Source: an uncultured Actinomycetes bacterium | GTDB lineage: Bacteria > Actinomycetota > Actinomycetes > Nanopelagicales > Nanopelagicaceae | Length of the DNA stretch: 22,809 bases | Direction: 5' to 3' | NCBI GenBank assembly: GCA_903852955.1 | Contig: CAINSH010000043.1 | Span: forward strand, 1-22,809 | Part shown: piece after piece, positions 1-16,544 of the stretch | Numbering within the stretch: position 1 is the first letter of the stretch | Layout: every line of letters begins with the position of its first letter | Made by a program: the position numbers and the translations under genes | The notes under the pieces: model-generated | Databases searched by the model: none | The model's input: only the letters and a program-made list of their open reading frames with translations | Told to the model about the DNA's origin: nothing

Positions 1-32
1 AGTGGCATCCTTGCCGCAGTATTAGATGCCAT
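1..32 (-). CDS. tatC: TatC, Sec-independent translocase subunit, N-terminal fragment
   Basis: Only the first ten codons are inside the window; they read MASNTAARMP and run off the left edge. The start ATG lies at 32, ten bases after the tatA stop. A short N-terminus ending in R-M-P fits TatC, where it leads into a conserved 'EHL-ELR' helix, and tatA-tatC is the standard actinobacterial order. TatC is the multi-spanning receptor for twin-arginine signal peptides. The identification rests on context and a very short peptide. A TAnnnT hexamer six bases upstream suggests an extra promoter of its own. Confidence 0.6.
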   Translation of the reverse strand, partial: MASNTAARMP

Positions 33-38
33 AGGCTA

Positions 39-44
39 AATTTA
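39..44 (-). promoter_or_regulatory. Candidate leaderless -10 element for tatC
   Basis: On the minus strand TAAATT is followed by exactly six bases (TAGCCT) and then the tatC ATG. The hexamer includes the tatA stop codon. The spacing matches seven other genes in the window, which would make the start codon the first transcribed base. It is probably additional to read-through from tatA. Confidence 0.4.
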
Positions 45-224
45 TTTGTCGGTTGATTCGCCGCTTGGTTTATTGTCATCCTCCTGGAGTTCCTTGATTT
101 CGCTTTTGAAGATGCGAAGTGAGCGTCCAAGTGAACGTGCAGAATCAGGTAGTCGTTTCGCGCCGAAAAGAACCAGGACAACAACTAGAAGAACAATTAG
201 ATGTGTTGGCTTGAGTGCGTTCAT
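42..224 (-). CDS. tatA: TatA/E family twin-arginine translocase pore subunit
   Basis: A 60-residue protein with the TatA layout: a very short N-terminus, one hydrophobic helix (about residues 8-20), the F-G hinge at 20-21, the A-K-R-L-P motif, an amphipathic helix (about 27-46), and an acidic polar tail. TatA oligomerises in the cytoplasmic membrane to let folded Tat substrates through. Length is short but normal for actinobacterial TatA. The ATG at 224 has a good ribosome site (AAGGAG, seven to eight bases upstream), so unlike many neighbours it is not leaderless. It lies 74 bases after pafC and directly before tatC, matching the pafB-pafC-tatA-tatC order of Mycobacterium. Confidence 0.93.
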
Positions 225-280
225 TACTTCTCCTTGATTTAGGTCGGCTTACAACGCTATAGGTTACCCCAGGCTTGTGT

Positions 281-292
281 CCTAGCGCTAGG
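281..292. repeat. Perfect 12-bp palindrome CCTAGCGCTAGG after pafC
   Basis: The 12-mer is its own reverse complement and is flanked by AGGCT (271-275) and AGCCT (296-300), which are also complementary, giving an interrupted longer stem. It lies just past the pafC stop, between pafC and the tatA start. There is no T-run, so it is not a standard intrinsic terminator. It may be a regulator-binding site or an mRNA-end hairpin; function unknown. Confidence 0.4.
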
Positions 293-298
293 CGCAGC

Positions 299-1219
299 CT
301 ATTGAGATTGATAACGATCGAGCATCAGTTGAGACTTTTCACATATTTCTTCCCGTAAATCCAATGGAGTAACTAGTTCGGCGCTACCTGAACTTGCCAA
401 GATACTTCGGATGAGCCATTGGGAAGAAAAGGAATCTTGAGAATAGTCAGAGTTACTTGATTTTTCCTCGGCATCAAATCGCTCTCTCATGAGCCTTAGG
501 CGTGAATTGAATCTAACTGTAAAACTCTGTTTAGCTGCTGCAGAGTCAGTCATCGCAGGTGGTTCATCTGAAACTTTATTGATGCTGGTGCAGGATTGAA
601 TACGATCTAAGCGAAAAACTCTAAAATCTTGTGCAGTTTCGCAAAATGCATAGAGGTATTCAGCGTTTTCATCGACCCGAAGCTCAAGCGGTCTTACTAA
701 TCGTTGTGAAATTTCATCTCGATAGATTGAATAATAAGAAATATCGAGGGCGTGCTTTCGAACTATGGCAGTTTCTATTTCAGCACGCATAGAAGCTGGG
801 ATGTTGCTGATAGCCCTTAATTTTGAAGTGATCCGAGAACTCTTAGATAAACGTTGGCCAAGAATTTCGATATTTTGCTTCAGCGCACTATCGGTCGGCA
901 AGGATTGTGACAGCAAATCCAACCCCATAATCAGGGCTACTTGTTCCTCTAGGTTAAGTGTTCTTGGTGATTGCAATGTTTCAGCGTTTTGAATAGTCAC
1001 AAATCCAGATTCAAAAGATAGATCCATCAGCTCAAGTGCTGTGTATCCCGGCAAACCACACATCCACAGAGTCGTTAAGTCTGAAACCATCTGCTTGGGT
1101 GAAACATCAAAGGCAGCGGCTAACTCCTTCACACTGATTCCCTGGTTGGCAGTAATAAATGGCACAAGAGCCAGCAGACGTTCGGTTTCGGCGAGTGCGG
1201 TTGGTTTGTTTTTAACCAT
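299..1219 (-). CDS. pafC: PafC, WYL-domain transcriptional regulator (partner of PafB)
   Basis: About 306 residues. The N-terminus is a winged-helix DNA-binding region (VKELAAAFDVSPKQMVSDL around residues 34-52), followed by a linker and a WYL ligand-sensing domain ending in the R-V-F-R-L-D-R-I strand typical of the family. PafB and PafC together activate the LexA-independent DNA-damage response in mycobacteria. The start used is the ATG at 1219, which overlaps the pafB stop by eight bases and begins MVKNKPTALAETERLLAL; an upstream in-frame start at 1249 would add ten residues lying inside pafB. Coupled translation with pafB is likely. The canonical WYL tripeptide is diverged here (E-Y-L-Y). 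Confidence 0.9.
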   Translation of the reverse strand: MVKNKPTALAETERLLALVPFITANQGISVKELAAAFDVSPKQMVSDLTTLWMCGLPGYTALELMDLSFESGFVTIQNAETLQSPRTLNLEEQVALIMGLDLLSQSLPTDSALKQNIEILGQRLSKSSRITSKLRAISNIPASMRAEIETAIVRKHALDISYYSIYRDEISQRLVRPLELRVDENAEYLYAFCETAQDFRVFRLDRIQSCTSINKVSDEPPAMTDSAAAKQSFTVRFNSRLRLMRERFDAEEKSSNSDYSQDSFSSQWLIRSILASSGSAELVTPLDLREEICEKSQLMLDRYQSQ

Positions 1220-2153
1220 GTATCCGCACCAGCTCTTTGAGGTTATCAATGACCTTGCCGCGGATATCTGCCGGCTCCTTCACCACCACATCGTCTAAAT
1301 GCCAAAGAACAGTGTCGATAAAGGTCTCTGTATCGCCGTAGGCAATTTCAATCCGATCCCACTCCCCTAAATCTTTTATTGAGTGAGCAACCTTGCGCAA
1401 CGTTGCAGCTTTGCCTTTACGAATATCCAAAACTGCAAGTTTTTCAGGTTCTTCTGAATCCATATTTTCAAAAAGGTCAAAGCCGTCCGGTACAGCAAAT
1501 CGATTTGGCTTGCCAGCGGTTTCTATTTGACTTGCAACCCGATCCATTCTAAAAGTACGTAACTCCTTCTTTTCTTGATCCAAACCCGTGAAATACCAGT
1601 GCCCGTTTCGAACGCCCACTGCGTAAGGGGCGATTTCACGGCGTTTAGCAATCAAATCAACTGAAAAATATTCAAAAACCACATGTGTTTGGTTTGCAAT
1701 GGCTTGAAGAACGGTTTCTAACTCCTCATTCATCAGAGTTATTCTCGGAGCTAATGTTGGAATGGCAGCAAGATCTGACTCGATCCCCATTGATTTCAAT
1801 TTAAGTAGTGCAGTATGCGCGCCTGAATCCAACGCCGCACCATTCCATGCTTGGGCAGCTAAGGATAAAAGCGCAATATCTGTCCCTGATATCTCACCAA
1901 GATCTAATGCATAATTCTCAGGCTTAATGCGATAGCCAGCTTCATCATTAAATAATGGATCTAGTCCACCAACTTCGATTTCTATCCCCAAAGTGCGTAA
2001 GTCATCCTTATCGCGCTCAAACATTCGCTCTTTAGATTCTTCGTTACCTTCGTAGCCTTCAATGCTTCGAAAGATTTCACTCTTAGTCAGATATCGCTTA
2101 GTGGCTAGCAAAGCGATAGTCAGATTTACTAAGCGCTCACTCTTCCGCGACAC
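1212..2153 (-). CDS. pafB: PafB, WYL-domain transcriptional regulator
   Basis: About 313 residues starting V-S-R-K-S-E-R-L-V-N-L, the usual beginning of actinobacterial PafB. It has an N-terminal HTH (about residues 1-60, with R-Y-L-T-K-S-E-I-F), a middle linker, and a WYL domain (W-Y-F variant, then T-F-R-M-D-R). It acts with PafC as a heterodimeric activator of DNA repair genes. I chose the GTG at 2153, which has AAGG about seven bases upstream; a TTG at 2189 would add twelve residues inside trmI. Even with the short start the gene overlaps trmI by 17 bases, so it is expressed from the trmI transcript. The Pup-proteasome genes that usually lie just upstream are absent. Confidence 0.92.
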   Translation of the reverse strand: MSRKSERLVNLTIALLATKRYLTKSEIFRSIEGYEGNEESKERMFERDKDDLRTLGIEIEVGGLDPLFNDEAGYRIKPENYALDLGEISGTDIALLSLAAQAWNGAALDSGAHTALLKLKSMGIESDLAAIPTLAPRITLMNEELETVLQAIANQTHVVFEYFSVDLIAKRREIAPYAVGVRNGHWYFTGLDQEKKELRTFRMDRVASQIETAGKPNRFAVPDGFDLFENMDSEEPEKLAVLDIRKGKAATLRKVAHSIKDLGEWDRIEIAYGDTETFIDTVLWHLDDVVVKEPADIRGKVIDNLKELVRIHG

Positions 2154-2988
2154 CGTATGCACCTTTTGATGGTCGACGTCTGCGAGCAAGAACTTCTACA
2201 CCTGGCGCCATTCTTCGGCTCTGAATGAGAAAACCTGTATGACCAATCATTCTTTGTTGCGGGCGAACGGCTAAGCCTTCATGGTGCCAACCACGAACTA
2301 AAGTTTCACTACTTTCGGGTTCAGTAAATCTTCCATCCTCTTTAATGGCTTCGGCAGTAGCTGACAACTGAGTTGTTGTTGCTACGTAAGCCATGAAAAC
2401 TCCTCCTGGACGAAGTGCATGTGCTGCCGTATCTATGCATTCCCAAGGAGCAAGCATGTCAAGAATCACTCGATCAAACTCACTTTCAAAACTTTGATCC
2501 TGTAGGTCGCCTACGGTTAAAGTCCAATTTGAAATATCATCATTGAAATAATGGGAAACATTCGAACGTGCGTTTTCGGCAAAATCAGCACGACGTTCAA
2601 CCGAATGAACTGTTCCATTTTCGCCAACAGCTCGTAGTAATGAGATTGTAAGAGCCCCGCTCCCAACGCCGGCTTCTAAGACACGTGCACCAGGAAAAAC
2701 ATCAGCCAACCCAATAATCATCGCGGCATCTTTTGGATAAACAATCGTTGCTCCGCGTGGCATTGTTAAAACGTAATCAGCAAGTAATGGCTTAAAGGCG
2801 GTAAATTTCAAACCTGCCGTGGTGCTAACTACTGAACCTTCAGGCATTCCGATCAAATCATCGTGGGTTATCCAGCCCTTGTGCGTATGCCATTCTTTTC
2901 CGGGCGTAATCGTAAAGCTATAAAGCTTTCCTTTAGGATCGGTGAGTTGAATCCGATCGCCCTCTGCGAAAAAACCTTGATTAGACAC
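2137..2988 (-). CDS. trmI: tRNA (adenine-58-N1)-methyltransferase TrmI
   Basis: 283 residues, normal for bacterial TrmI. An N-terminal beta-barrel region (about 1-75) precedes a class I SAM-dependent fold: motif I E-A-G-V-G-S-G-A-L at 105-113, an acidic E-R after strand 2 (131-132), G-D-L at 160-162, and D-M-L-A-P-W after strand 4 (177-182). It forms m1A58 in the T-loop of tRNA. The Mycobacterium orthologue is Rv2118c. The GTG start at 2988 lacks a Shine-Dalgarno sequence but has TAAGAT six bases upstream, so the mRNA is probably leaderless. It heads the trmI-pafB-pafC operon and diverges from the RecB-like nuclease, as Rv2118c does from Rv2119. Confidence 0.95.
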   Translation of the reverse strand: MSNQGFFAEGDRIQLTDPKGKLYSFTITPGKEWHTHKGWITHDDLIGMPEGSVVSTTAGLKFTAFKPLLADYVLTMPRGATIVYPKDAAMIIGLADVFPGARVLEAGVGSGALTISLLRAVGENGTVHSVERRADFAENARSNVSHYFNDDISNWTLTVGDLQDQSFESEFDRVILDMLAPWECIDTAAHALRPGGVFMAYVATTTQLSATAEAIKEDGRFTEPESSETLVRGWHHEGLAVRPQQRMIGHTGFLIQSRRMAPGVEVLARRRRPSKGAYGVAEE

Positions 2989-2994
2989 GGGAGC

Positions 2995-3000
2995 ATCTTA
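2995..3000 (-). promoter_or_regulatory. Leaderless -10 element of the trmI-pafBC operon
   Basis: TAAGAT on the minus strand, then six bases (GCTCCC), then the trmI GTG. No ribosome-binding sequence fits between. It is the only obvious promoter for trmI-pafB-pafC. Confidence 0.6.
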
Positions 3001-3026
3001 GGTCAAATAACAGGGCTAAGTGCGGG

Positions 3027-3032
3027 TATGTT
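3027..3032 (+). promoter_or_regulatory. Candidate -10 element of the RecB-like nuclease
   Basis: TATGTT ends seven bases before the GTG at 3040, close to the leaderless spacing seen elsewhere. It overlaps the alternative ATG at 3028, so only one of the two readings can be right. Confidence 0.35.
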
Positions 3033-3039
3033 GCCGTAC

Positions 3040-3801
3040 GTGAGTACCGAACCGTTACGCCTATCTCCCAGTCGAGTCAGTGAATTTGAAAACTGTCCTC
3101 AACTGTATAAATACCGCGTCATCGATCAACTTCCTCAACCACCTTCTTTAGATGCAGAACGTGGCACCTTGGTCCACACCGTACTCCATGATCTTTTTGA
3201 AAATCCGGCGCAATCTAGAACCCCAGAAACTGCAATCGAATTGTTGCCTTCGCGCTGGTTAGCGCAGCAAGAAGAAAAACCGGAACTTTTCGAAATGATT
3301 ACAAGTGAAAAGGAGTGGTTAGATCGCGCTGAAGCTCTGTTGCGCACCTACTTCACACTTGAGAATCCTTCGCAATTCGAAGCTACTCACCGTGAACTAC
3401 ATCTAGAAAATGACTTATCGCAAGAGATTTACCTCCATGGTTATGTAGACCGACTAGATGTTGCACCAACGGGTGAAGTTCGCATCATTGACTACAAAAC
3501 AGGTAAAGCGCCTAAGCCAGCGTGGGAAGAAAAAGCTCTCTTTCAACTGAGAGTTTATGCCCTCTTATACTTTAAAACTCATAATGTATTACCACGCCTG
3601 CTGCAGCTAATCTATTTAGGTGATGGAAAACTAGTTAAAAGTACGCCAACTCTTAGTGATTTGGCCGCAACAGAAAAGATACTAATCCGAGTGGCAAAAG
3701 ATATATCGGCTTCTATGGAAAAAGATTATTGGCCACCTAAACCAAGTCGCTTATGCGATTGGTGTTTCTTCAAAAGCATTTGTCCGGCGCATAATAATTA
3801 A
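3040..3801 (+). CDS. RecB-family PD-(D/E)XK exonuclease with AddB-type Fe-S cysteines
   Basis: About 253 residues. Nuclease motifs appear in order: G-T-L-V-H (H46), G-Y-V-D-R-L-D (D137), I-I-D-Y-K-T-G (D151, K153) and Q-L-R-V-Y. Four cysteines, C19 near the N-terminus and C239, C242, C248 at the C-terminus (C-x2-C-x5-C), match the iron-sulfur staple of AddB and Cas4 nucleases. There is no helicase domain, so this is a stand-alone nuclease like Rv2119. I prefer the GTG at 3040 (begins VSTEPLRLSPSR) because a -10 lies seven bases upstream; an ATG at 3028 adds four residues. It diverges from trmI and its stop interlocks with that of the HAD gene. Its substrate is unknown; DNA repair is the likely setting. 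Confidence 0.85.
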   Translation: MSTEPLRLSPSRVSEFENCPQLYKYRVIDQLPQPPSLDAERGTLVHTVLHDLFENPAQSRTPETAIELLPSRWLAQQEEKPELFEMITSEKEWLDRAEALLRTYFTLENPSQFEATHRELHLENDLSQEIYLHGYVDRLDVAPTGEVRIIDYKTGKAPKPAWEEKALFQLRVYALLYFKTHNVLPRLLQLIYLGDGKLVKSTPTLSDLAATEKILIRVAKDISASMEKDYWPPKPSRLCDWCFFKSICPAHNN

Positions 3802-4469
3802 ATTGGATATGTGAAATCCAACCAGAGTTTTCCAAGCAGATCATAAGAGATTTTCTCTAAGGATTTTATTGAGCGAACTCGCGCACTCTCTTCAACCGTT
3901 ACTAAATGAGGGACTGCGATTAGCCAAGCCCCACTAGTAGTTGCTGCCGCTACGCCAGTCAAAGAATCCTCAAAAACAAGACAATCTCTGATATCGCTCC
4001 CAGTTATAGTTGCAGCTTTTAGGTAGGCATCAGGGTGTGGCTTTGTTTGGGTGACATCATCACTTGAGATCGAAAATGGGAAAAGGTCAGAGCCGACATT
4101 TGAAAGAACGGCATCTACGATAATTCGCGGACTAGCTGATACGAGTCCAGTCTTTACTCCATGGCTTTGCAAAGATTTCACTAGCTCGTAAGCGCCAGGC
4201 ATTAGTGGTGTTTGGCTCAGCATTTTTGCTGCCTGCACAGCAATGAGTTTTTCGGTGAAAAACAAAGGAGTTTGGGCGTTGCCACACTTGTTGTGCATGT
4301 ATTCACCCACCCGACTAAGTGGCCCACCTAAACAGGCAACTTGATCTTCCAGCCGCCATTGGTAACCATATTCTGCGGTTATTTCTCGCTCGGATTCAAG
4401 CCATTGCGGTTCAGAGTCAACTAAGAGTCCATCCATATCGAAAAATATGGCATCAAAAAAGGGTTTCAC
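3798..4469 (-). CDS. HAD-superfamily phosphatase, beta-phosphoglucomutase-like
   Basis: About 223 residues with the full HAD subfamily IA motif set: F-D-M-D-G-L-L-V-D-S near the N-terminus (nucleophile and acid aspartates plus the start of the cap), V-S-A-S-P for motif II, K-P-H-P-D for motif III, and V-F-E-D-S-L-T-G-V for motif IV. A helical cap fills residues about 20-80. It probably hydrolyses a small phosphorylated metabolite or isomerises a sugar phosphate; the substrate cannot be read from sequence. The GTG at 4469 has GGAG five bases upstream and is preferred; a TTG at 4511 would add fourteen residues with no family support. Its stop overlaps that of the nuclease in a shared TTAA, and it diverges from the PAC2 gene. 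Confidence 0.85.
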   Translation of the reverse strand: MKPFFDAIFFDMDGLLVDSEPQWLESEREITAEYGYQWRLEDQVACLGGPLSRVGEYMHNKCGNAQTPLFFTEKLIAVQAAKMLSQTPLMPGAYELVKSLQSHGVKTGLVSASPRIIVDAVLSNVGSDLFPFSISSDDVTQTKPHPDAYLKAATITGSDIRDCLVFEDSLTGVAAATTSGAWLIAVPHLVTVEESARVRSIKSLEKISYDLLGKLWLDFTYPI

Positions 4470-4516
4470 GACGACTCCGGATTTCCCTGCAACAGTTGGC
4501 AGATTTTGCAAAGGTT

Positions 4517-4522
4517 ACCCTA
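4517..4522 (-). promoter_or_regulatory. Candidate -10 element of the HAD hydrolase gene
   Basis: TAGGGT on the minus strand, about 47 bases before the GTG start; an overlapping TAACCT (4512-4517) is an alternative. It almost abuts the PAC2 -10 on the other strand, so the two promoters may interfere. Confidence 0.35.
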
Positions 4523-4526
4523 AGGT
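4521..4526 (+). promoter_or_regulatory. Candidate -10 element of the PAC2 gene
   Basis: TAAGGT followed by eight bases and the ATG at 4535. The predicted leader is two bases or none, and no Shine-Dalgarno sequence is present. Confidence 0.4.
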
Positions 4527-4534
4527 TTAACCCT

Positions 4535-5398
4535 ATGGAGATTCACCACATTCCTGCGCTGAGAAATCCAATCATGGTGTTGGGGTTTTCAGGATGGAAT
4601 GATGCCGGTGAAGCCGCGACAGGAACAATCGAGCATCTTTTATCAGTTTGGCAAGATGTAGATAATGAAGTAGTTCCAGAATTAATAGCAGATATTGAAT
4701 CTGAAGATTATTACGATTTCCAAGTGAATCGCCCGCATATCTTTGTAGATGATTCTCAGATACGAAATATCACTTGGCCAACTACGGAAATATTTGGTAT
4801 TGCACTTCCGCACTTTGACCGTGATTTAGTAATTGTTAAGGGTACTGAACCGTCAATGCGCTGGAAAACATTTGTCCGTGAAATTTTAGATTTGGCAGAT
4901 GACTTAGAAGTATCCCTCGTTATTACGTTGGGATCATTGCTTGCAGATGTGCCACATTCACGTCCTATTGGAGTAAGTGGTAGCGGGGCACATCCTGAAA
5001 TAGCTACGCGTTTAGGTGTAGAAGTTTCCAGATATGAAGGACCAACTGGAATCTTAGGAATTATTGGTGATGCCTGTATGCGTAGAGGAATTGATGCCAT
5101 TTCATTATGGGCTGCCATTCCACATTACGCATCGTCATCGCCTTCTCCAAAAGCGAGTTTAGCTCTAGTTAACGCTTTAGAAGATTTTCTAGATGTTGAT
5201 ATCCCACTTGCAGATTTGGCCGAGGCCGCTGACGAATGGGAAAAGGATGTAACCGAAATGGCTAAAGAAGATAGTGATGTTGCCGAGTACGTGAAGGCTC
5301 TTGAAGATTCCAAGGACGCGGCTGAACTACCTGATGTTTCGGGTGATTCCATCGCTAAAGAGTTTGAAAGATATTTGCGCAGAAGGAATAAGGATTAG
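4535..5398 (+). CDS. PAC2 family protein (proteasome-assembly-chaperone-like fold)
   Basis: 287 residues starting MEIHHIPALRNPIMVLGFSG, the usual opening of actinobacterial PAC2 proteins (PF09754; Rv2125 is the mycobacterial member). The V-L-G-F-S-G-W-N-D-A-G motif and the P-T-G-I-L-G-I and S-L-W-A-A-I-P-H-Y segments belong to the core fold, which resembles purine nucleoside phosphorylases. The acidic helical C-terminus ending F-E-R-Y-L-R-R-R is also typical. Biochemical function is unknown; the name comes from the eukaryotic chaperone. Reading frame continues upstream to 4319, but that part overlaps the HAD gene and looks non-family. It converges on mshC with interlocked stops (TTAG). Confidence 0.9.
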   Translation: MEIHHIPALRNPIMVLGFSGWNDAGEAATGTIEHLLSVWQDVDNEVVPELIADIESEDYYDFQVNRPHIFVDDSQIRNITWPTTEIFGIALPHFDRDLVIVKGTEPSMRWKTFVREILDLADDLEVSLVITLGSLLADVPHSRPIGVSGSGAHPEIATRLGVEVSRYEGPTGILGIIGDACMRRGIDAISLWAAIPHYASSSPSPKASLALVNALEDFLDVDIPLADLAEAADEWEKDVTEMAKEDSDVAEYVKALEDSKDAAELPDVSGDSIAKEFERYLRRRNKD

Positions 5399-6660: not shown

Positions 6661-7365
6661 TTAAAAAGCGGGCCAAGGTATCGCTGGCCAATCAGGATTT
6701 GGGGTTGGCATTAGCTCTGTCGAAATCAAATTATGGACTCTATTAAGTAAGGCTTGTATCTCCTGTTCAGTCAAAAAAGGTGAAAGATCTAAATCTGTTT
6801 TAATCCCAGAAACTAATTTCTTTAAGGATGCAATCTCGTTAATTGTTAATTTATCTCCTGCCCACTGCCAAAGCACAGTTCGCAGTTTGTCTTCGTGGTG
6901 GAAAGTTACTCCGTGATCGCAACCAAAAAGGGAGCCTTCAGAGGTCGGTATTAGATGTCCAATCTTTCGATCAGTGTTGTTAATGATTGCGTCAAAAACC
7001 GCCATCTTCCTTAGTTCAGGAAGATCTTGAGAAAAGTACTCGGCAAGATCGATTGATTCATCGATTTCAATCCACTCTTGGACCATTCCGAGCCCATATG
7101 GTCCCTCACGTAAAATAGTTAGTGGCACAATGTTGAATCCTAAATAACTGCTGACTAGAAATGCAGCAAATTCCCTATCTGCCAAAGTTCCATCAGGGAA
7201 ATCCCATAGTGGTCGTTCACCTGCAATGGGTTTATAGATGCAATTGATTTCATTTATTGAATCTGAAGCCTGTGCAAAAAGAGTGGCGTTGGATGCATCA
7301 ACTAAGCGAGCTGTCACTACAAGTTCGCCGTGGGATAATAATTTAAATTTATCGTCGATATCCAT
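6661..7365 (-). CDS. SCO1664 family protein, kinase-like (PI3/4-kinase-related fold)
   Basis: 234 residues. Family members show distant similarity to phosphatidylinositol 3/4-kinases. Features consistent with that fold: an early Y-K-P-I-A-G-E-R-P-L-W-D-F segment like a nucleotide-binding lysine strand, D-A-I-I-N-N-T-D-R-K-I-G-H resembling a catalytic loop (D-x-x-x-x-N), and G-C-D-H-G-V-T-F-H resembling the metal-binding DFG region. The phosphate acceptor is unknown. The ATG at 7365 overlaps the DUF3090 stop by 17 bases and has GAGG just upstream, so translation is coupled. The mycobacterial counterpart (Rv2133c) also lies by mshC. A catalytic kinase role is inferred from motifs, not shown. 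Confidence 0.85.
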   Translation of the reverse strand: MDIDDKFKLLSHGELVVTARLVDASNATLFAQASDSINEINCIYKPIAGERPLWDFPDGTLADREFAAFLVSSYLGFNIVPLTILREGPYGLGMVQEWIEIDESIDLAEYFSQDLPELRKMAVFDAIINNTDRKIGHLIPTSEGSLFGCDHGVTFHHEDKLRTVLWQWAGDKLTINEIASLKKLVSGIKTDLDLSPFLTEQEIQALLNRVHNLISTELMPTPNPDWPAIPWPAF

Positions 7366-15875: not shown

Positions 15876-16544
15876 ATGTCATCGAATCCTTTTATGGAGT
15901 TTCTGCGTCCACACCGAACTGTTCCCGTGACTTCATGGACGGCTCATTCACGTTGGGATCTTTCATTTCTTCGAGTAGTTATTCTATTTTTTGGGCTTTT
16001 TCTTTTTGGTATAGGTGATGCCTTTGTCATTCAATCAAATATTGGAAATGGTCCTTGGTCAGTTCTGGCCCAAGGAATTTCAAGAAACCTAAATATTTCG
16101 ATGGGTTGGTCAACTTTTGGAATCAGCGCTTTAGTCCTTTTGGCATGGATTCCGCTTCGTGAAAATCCAGGTTTTGGAACTATTTCAAATATGGTGATCA
16201 TTGCATCAGCGATTGAGGTTGGAGTTCTAACGATTCCACTTCAAACAAACTATGCAATGGGGATAATTTTTGCTCTTATCGGAATTGGTATGGTCGGAAC
16301 TGCCTCAGCCCTTTACATAACCTGCGGCCTGGGTTCAGGTCCTAGAGATGGGTTGATGACGGGCATTCATCTTAGAACCGGTATCCGAGTTGGACGTGTT
16401 CGATTAGCCATTGAAAGTTCGGTTTTCGCGCTGGGATGGATCTTGGGCGGAACTGTAGGCCTAGGTACGTTGCTTTTTGCTGGGTTAATTGGCCAATCTG
16501 TTGCCGTAGCCCTTGGTGTCGTTTCCCGCCTTACTTCCAAGTAA
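15876..16544 (+). CDS. YczE/YitT-like integral membrane protein
   Basis: 222 residues with about five to six membrane helices after a polar N-terminus of roughly 28 residues. Family marks include F-L-F-G-I-G-D-A-F near the first helix, I-G-N-G-P-W-S-V-L-A-Q-G in the first loop, and G-L-G-S-G-P-R-D-G-L-M-T-G in the second half; the repeated G-x-G-P segments suggest an internal duplication. Members include Bacillus YczE, needed for surfactin and bacillaene production by an unknown mechanism. No substrate can be assigned. The gene has its own leaderless promoter and is followed after 90 bases by the NCS2 permease. Confidence 0.85.
   Translation: MSSNPFMEFLRPHRTVPVTSWTAHSRWDLSFLRVVILFFGLFLFGIGDAFVIQSNIGNGPWSVLAQGISRNLNISMGWSTFGISALVLLAWIPLRENPGFGTISNMVIIASAIEVGVLTIPLQTNYAMGIIFALIGIGMVGTASALYITCGLGSGPRDGLMTGIHLRTGIRVGRVRLAIESSVFALGWILGGTVGLGTLLFAGLIGQSVAVALGVVSRLTSK

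Follow-up and report, generated by a model that had tools for sequence, protein, structure and literature searches.

Evidence for stepwise loss of the Pup-proteasome locus between trmI and pafB in Planktophila and its relatives

In the DNA described here, trmI runs directly into pafB at the place where the genes for pupylation and the proteasome had been expected, which raises the question of how the regulator PafBC came to be parted from the proteasome and joined to trmI. The window, by which we mean the whole stretch of 22,809 nucleotides analysed (assembly GCA_903852955.1, contig CAINSH010000043.1), comes from a genome of the Nanopelagicaceae of Candidatus Planktophila type (genus g1, below Planktophila; other genera of the family are numbered likewise). 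The group is drawn from acI, a lineage described as outnumbering all other bacteria in most freshwater lakes (PMC5301498). For PafBC, a close association with the Pup-proteasome locus has been described (PMC8223512), and a group that keeps PafBC without a proteasome lets one ask, from evolution, whether either half depends on the other.

All genes at the junction lie on the minus strand. The trmI gene (2137–2988; Pfam TrmI-like_N and GCD14) ends in a TGA codon at 2139–2137, and its product, which from its family we take to be a tRNA (adenine-58) methyltransferase, is full-length: when aligned with two proteasome-bearing relatives, it was found to have the conserved C-terminus SKGAYGVAEE, with a KG.YG stretch common to all three proteins. 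A deletion that shortened trmI was rejected on this alignment, in which the C-terminus is intact. The pafB gene (1212–2153; Pfam WYL and WCX) encodes a WYL/WCX transcription activator subunit, and its frame is open between a TTG at 2189 and position 1212. From homology, the start was assigned to the GTG at 2153–2151, predicting the sequence VSRKSERLVNL, which resembles the N-termini of relatives. This choice of start gives the 17-bp overlap (2137–2153) that the initial annotation had proposed, with the 3' end of trmI and the 5' end of pafB read in different frames. In the g3, g4 and g5 sequences inspected the pafB start is an ATG or GTG one codon further upstream, making the overlap 20 bp.

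Downstream, pafC (299–1219; Pfam HTH_PafC, 104.8 bits, and WYL) encodes the partner subunit and overlaps pafB by 8 bp. By Pfam, the two products are thus adjacent proteins of the HTH–WYL(–WCX) type, with HTH_PafC in PafC, as expected of PafBC; at an E value of 0.001, Pfam reported neither an HTH model in PafB nor a WCX model in PafC. The tatA gene follows (50–224; Pfam TatA_B_E, NCBIfam NF001854), as it follows pafBC in mycobacteria, and roughly the first 32 bp of what is presumably tatC (1–32), so named for its position and N-terminal likeness, begin at the contig edge. The flanking order trmI–pafB–pafC–tatA on one strand, with no gap between trmI and pafB, is therefore as first annotated. 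Divergent from trmI is a gene for a PD-(D/E)XK nuclease (2863–3801), whose start as listed falls within trmI; translation probably begins further in, around 3040, which would leave the two genes a short shared promoter region.

The window's own assembly (1.36 Mb in 253 contigs) is only 79.9% complete, and the absence of the Pup-proteasome system is therefore argued from the 13 single-contig genomes among the 20 Planktophila genomes sampled. We screened 151 family genomes with four models: Pup_ligase (PafA, Dop), Proteasome (PrcA, PrcB), Pup and the proteasomal ATPase OB domain. None of the four matched in any of the 20 Planktophila genomes, and Pup_ligase had no match in the window's own, 79.9% complete genome; a locus of pup, pafA/dop, mpa/arc, prcA and prcB was found in neither. 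The proposal that these genes are missing and were lost was thus upheld. The idea that the locus had moved elsewhere was rejected on the lack of matches in the 13 single-contig genomes, the genome search for Pup, PafA, Dop, Mpa/ARC and PrcA/B having turned up no relocated cluster. In the family as a whole, Pup_ligase, Proteasome and Pup were found in the same five of 151 genomes, four from g6 and one from g15. The ATPase OB model matched these five and gave a weak match, 23.5 bits against a cut-off of 23, in proteasome-free G125. When 201 genomes were sampled at the level of the order, Pup_ligase was again confined to the same five.

Where the system is kept, it sits at exactly this junction. 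G014 (L044) has trmI–ARC–Dop–Pup–PrcB–PrcA–PafA, then two opposite-strand FKBP genes, then pafB–pafC–tatA; the order is the same in G005, G020 and G044, and G032 is cut after the first FKBP. The distance from trmI to pafB is 7.27–7.28 kb in the four loci of this state. The g6 and g15 genomes therefore share the flanks trmI and pafB–pafC–tatA with the window and differ in keeping arc, dop, pup, prcB, prcA, pafA and the two FKBP genes, as well as a –10 box of their own before pafB. The 12 outgroup loci represent 12 other families of the class, and in every one ARC is the gene immediately after trmI; Dop, PrcB and PrcA come next in 11, the twelfth being cut at a contig end, and PafA is present in nine. 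No Pup was found in L235 or in L230, a locus whose end falls in or after ARC. All eight outgroup loci that reach pafB (L232–L239) have PafA before pafB and at least one FKBP gene on the same strand. Two loci (L229 and L230) stop short of pafB, and in two more (L231 and L240) the remaining sequence contains neither pafA nor pafB. Because the outgroup FKBP shares the strand of the locus, the pair between pafA and pafB in L043, L044, L045 and L047 is inverted relative to L232–L239. These two inverted genes already part pafB from pafA in the carriers, so loss of the proteasome alone need not alter pafB expression.

The trmI–pafB junction is thus the usual place of the locus, as had been claimed, both in proteasome-keeping relatives and in outgroups. 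Since the system occurs in only five of the 151 genomes of the family, always at this very junction, and is found there in the outgroups too, its absence is a real loss, most simply in one event. In the open literature, with subscription journals and bioRxiv outside the scope of the search, we found no earlier report of proteasome loss in this group. Bifidobacterium, for example, is not known to have a proteasome. More generally, some actinobacteria are described as having no proteasomal subunit genes (PMC6017811). The present case shares with that general description the loss of proteasome genes within Actinomycetota, and differs from it in that the pupylation genes have gone as well, PafBC has stayed where it was, and relatives allow the steps to be followed.

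The junction was then compared across the family. A TrmI match was found in 145 genomes, and 142 loci were read, leaving out G082, G088 and G094, in which trmI is broken by contig ends. These loci fall into 39 with the overlap, 92 with a PPIase gene, four with the proteasome locus, three with a short gap and four that end before pafB (L046, L106, L139 and L150). The overlap occurs in one clade only: in all 20 loci of Planktophila, in all 17 read from g4, and in one locus each from g3 and g5. With the same junction at 39 of 39 measured positions in four genera, the arrangement is not due to chance. In the PPIase state, which covers ten proteasome-free genera, the gap is 538–956 bp and holds a single opposite-strand PPIase gene in 92 of 92 loci, FKBP-like in 83 and cyclophilin-like in nine; the latter are all nine loci measured in g10 and g13, the kind of PPIase having been checked by Pfam in two loci of each. 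The three short gaps, in which no PPIase was detected (L068, 236 bp; L091, 110 bp; L127, 28 bp), are separate losses of the gene that produced no overlap, so that, among the 95 gaps of 28–956 bp, 92 contain a PPIase. In L068 (G117), what looks by eye like a degraded PPIase remnant lies in the gap, and PPIase loss may recur in g2. At L137:1628–2377, L141 and the other g10 and g13 junctions, a cyclophilin gene stands where others have FKBP, on the same strand, placing two unrelated PPIase families at one site; additional FKBP genes occur elsewhere in g10 (L353–L355, L367 and L368).

We built a tree from TrmI, PafB and PafC together, using 62 family loci that were complete enough, at most six per genus, and rooting it on eight of the 12 outgroup loci. 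Being made from genes of the locus itself, it is not an independent species tree. The carrier genera g6 and g15 branch at the base of the family. The proteasome-free clade received 94 bootstrap and 80 SH-aLRT support and was single in 91% of 200 bootstrap trees, so that the branch pointing to a single loss is not strong. The overlap genera (100/100) and the cyclophilin genera (100/99) form well supported clades, and the FKBP-junction genera a weaker one (85/61). The fewest changes required were one for the proteasome and four for the junction state, a count in which g12 was scored as overlap although its gap is 28 bp. In the first tree g12 falls beside g9 on a long branch, which would make it a separate PPIase loss; it was omitted from the second tree for its branch length.

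Ten other proteasome-free genera hold an opposite-strand PPIase in the trmI–pafB gap, and the overlap clade branches from among these genera. The most natural reading of the overlap is thus a second, later step of one clade, in which the junction PPIase disappeared. The suggestion in the initial annotation that the overlap itself marks the proteasome loss was not supported by this comparison, with 92 proteasome-free loci keeping a PPIase in the gap. Two other histories have to be weighed against a two-step one. The overlap could be the direct scar of one deletion that ran from the proteasome genes through to pafB, which would suit the intact flanks and the tight junction in every locus of the four overlap genera. 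Such a scar would, however, demand separate proteasome losses in the overlap, FKBP and cyclophilin clades, and with the PPIase so widely present in the gaps of related genera we consider it quite unlikely. That the locus was gained by transfer in g6 and g15, rather than lost elsewhere, would agree with its presence in so few genomes of the family; this appears extremely unlikely given that ARC follows trmI directly in all 12 loci from other families and that the carrier genera are basal. Horizontal gain in the two carrier genera was rejected on the position of the locus, which is shared with those families.

The junction PPIase may still be present elsewhere. In 10 of 11 Planktophila FKBP loci retrieved, the gene lies just downstream of argG, the eleventh, from the window's genome, being cut at a contig end; among ten FKBP loci of g4, four are after argG and six elsewhere. 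The argG-linked gene begins a few bases downstream (L222:1026–1520; likewise L223, L225, L226, L228, L356–L360 and L363–L366). The gene has not been retained everywhere: only one weak FKBP_C match was found in each of G115 (g1), G003 (g4), G002 (g3) and G004 (g5). The simplest reading is that the argG-linked gene is likely the former junction gene, which has moved; the FKBP tree was too poorly resolved to show where it came from.

The loss of the intervening gene coincides with a change at the pafB promoter. We searched for a TANNNT box 5–7 bp before the start codon, taking the nearest in-frame candidate as the pafB start, with the caveat that single calls may be off. Such a box precedes pafB in all four loci of the proteasome state and 84 of 92 of the PPIase state, and in 0/39 overlap loci and 0/8 outgroups, against a background of 3.1% (2,304 of 74,259) at start-like triplets of the same loci. 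The spacer is 6 or 7 bp in all 84. Of the eight PPIase-state loci that lack the box, six are from g17; a ribosome-binding-like site was also seen in 18 of the 92. At trmI, the window has a –10 box TAAGAT (2995–3000, minus strand) 6 bp before the GTG at 2988, typical of a leaderless promoter in which transcription would start at the first codon. All 39 overlap-clade loci have a box 5–7 bp before a trmI start candidate, with several candidates allowed per locus (mean 1.3). Outside the clade just 35 of 102 loci have one (for example, 0/18 in g8), and the evidence for a leaderless trmI is accordingly confined to the overlap clade. The claim that pafB is placed under the leaderless trmI promoter therefore holds as far as the boxes go, present at trmI and absent at pafB throughout the clade, and was not supported where it made this a part of the proteasome loss. 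These patterns suggest that pafB likely moved onto the trmI mRNA as a second step, after that loss.

In the window, a ribosome-binding-like site, AAAAGG (2162–2167, minus strand), precedes the pafB GTG at 2153 by 8 bp and is formed by Lys-Gly codons within trmI. Each of the 39 overlap loci has a similar site, which we did not count as evidence, since the conserved TrmI Lys-Gly codons yield it anyway. In the overlap clade, synonymous conservation of trmI reaches 0.78 over the last columns versus 0.40 overall; the corresponding values in the control genera g7, g8 and g16 are 0.52 and 0.38. A single codon lying 5 bp ahead of pafB is also highly conserved, at 0.85 compared to 0.65 in the control genera. 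A terminator scan gave four hits with 3.3 expected, no more than chance.

The motif by which PafBC acts on recA, RecA-NDp, is described as tTGTCRgtg-8-TAnnnT (PMC5656591), and mycobacterial PafBC as being activated by ssDNA and working by sigma adaptation (PMC11804915). We read the region upstream of recA in the best 30 of 141 genomes with a recA match, which came from g1, g3 and g4. Within these 30, all 19 Planktophila genomes that have recA carry RecA-NDp upstream of it, with no mismatch over 12 positions in nine, one in six and two in four; in g3 and g4, eight of 11 had at most two mismatches and three of 11 had three, which is at chance level. Shuffled sequences reached two or fewer mismatches in 1.6% of cases, a rate to be read with the shuffles keeping base composition only and the genomes being related. 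Strict matches numbered 28 in 20 g1 genomes and 23 in 20 g4 genomes, versus three and five, respectively, for the reversed control. Among 20 of the 28 g1 sites that were inspected, six lie before recA, three before Rce1-like genes and one before carD. The Rce1-like genes, encoding membrane proteins of the CAAX protease family, have the motif 6–7 bp before their ATG in three Planktophila genomes (L200, L206 and L218) and are a possible leaderless target of PafBC. The site 24 bp before carD (L202:1024–1506, G040) was seen in one genome and may be due to chance, and the ORF after the site in L204 has no Pfam domain. In the window's incomplete genome, neither recA, LexA nor a strict RecA-NDp match was found. 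LexA is present in 19 of 20 genomes of the genus, so PafBC is not the sole damage regulator. With RecA-NDp upstream of recA in every Planktophila genome with recA, PafBC probably still runs a damage response in the genus, in line with the DNA-damage role for which it had been proposed to be kept.

The trmI promoter showed little of this motif. The upstream half of RecA-NDp has three mismatches of nine there in two of 39 overlap loci and five to eight in the other 37; at the old pafB promoter, there are four to nine mismatches in the 88 loci with a box. Self-control by PafBC was rejected for want of a good upstream half-site at either promoter, and is thus unlikely. Having no PafBC site, the trmI promoter looks constitutive.

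Both the promoter and the function of pafBC could be understood differently. Internal promoters are common in bacteria and our consensus scan covers one promoter type, so a promoter hidden within trmI might drive pafBC and make its expression independent of trmI. This we consider unlikely: not one of the overlap loci has a –10 box 5–7 bp before the pafB start, and no sigma-70-like site was found on the minus strand of 1–3200, where the scan gave two hits, both on the plus strand, with 4.6 expected. Moreover, in the 60 trmI columns before the last block, taken as three blocks of 20, synonymous conservation is 0.43, 0.40 and 0.30, not raised over the trmI average, and on this ground a conserved internal pafB promoter was rejected. 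PafBC might alternatively be a relic with no role in DNA damage, the proteasome that partners it in mycobacteria being gone and the proteins of the locus showing rapid divergence within the family (the combined tree of TrmI, PafB and PafC has a median end branch of 0.35). A relic would hardly be expected to sit beside trmI in all 39 overlap loci with its PafB and PafC domains still recognised by Pfam, or to have its target motif retained at recA in all 19 Planktophila genomes with recA, and this view seems very unlikely to be correct.

Taken together, these data make it likely that the actinobacterial Pup-proteasome locus decayed in steps, of which this junction is the last, and that the decay left the regulator on the trmI mRNA. 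The ancestral state, seen in the outgroups, would be a one-strand trmI–arc–dop–pup–prcB–prcA–pafA–FKBP–pafB–pafC, with one or two FKBP genes. In a first step, the FKBP pair would have been inverted and pafB would have gained its own leaderless-type –10 box, giving the state found in today's carriers. Next, arc to pafA and one FKBP would have been lost, leaving trmI, an opposite-strand PPIase and a self-promoted pafB, as observed in proteasome-free genera; that this happened once, as is simplest, and which FKBP stayed are points that we infer. In the Planktophila clade the PPIase would then have left the junction, in Planktophila mostly to the position downstream of argG, with the outcome seen in the living genomes: a pafB that has no –10 box and overlaps trmI. 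PafBC thus seems to have changed promoters twice, from the operon to a leaderless promoter of its own and then to the trmI mRNA, and intermediates of the decay are preserved in living relatives.

As for its present working, trmI, pafB and pafC would be read as one mRNA from the leaderless-type trmI promoter, with pafB translated either by coupling or from the site in the trmI Lys-Gly codons. The mycobacterial pafA–pafB–pafC operon (M. smegmatis; PMC5656591) is similar in having adjacent HTH–WYL genes pafB and pafC and RecA-NDp at recA; in Planktophila, pafA and the other proteasome genes are missing and pafB is joined to trmI. In mycobacteria, PafBC levels are described as unaltered by stress, and the proteasome as needed to lower RecA again after damage (PMC8223512). 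In Planktophila, the amount of PafBC might likewise stay constant and ssDNA act as the switch, as described for mycobacteria (PMC11804915), with PafBC activating recA by binding to its RecA-NDp promoter, where the motif is present; after damage, there would be no proteasome to clear RecA. It is conceivable, though we advance it only tentatively, that in the Planktophila clade pafBC, having lost a promoter of its own, is made along with TrmI and that trmI expression sets the damage-response capacity of PafBC, tying repair to growth and translation, with recovery proceeding without a proteasome.

Three further ORFs in the window deserve mention. The ORF at 15876–16544 had no Pfam domain in a search confined to Pfam. 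The one at 4319–5398 encodes a Pfam PAC2-family protein, in a genome that is proteasome-free, and bears a distant likeness to NCBIfam's family of proteasome assembly chaperones (31 bits against a cut-off of 200). The ORF at 6661–7365, in which Pfam found no domain, fits NCBIfam TIGR03843 (SCO1664 family).
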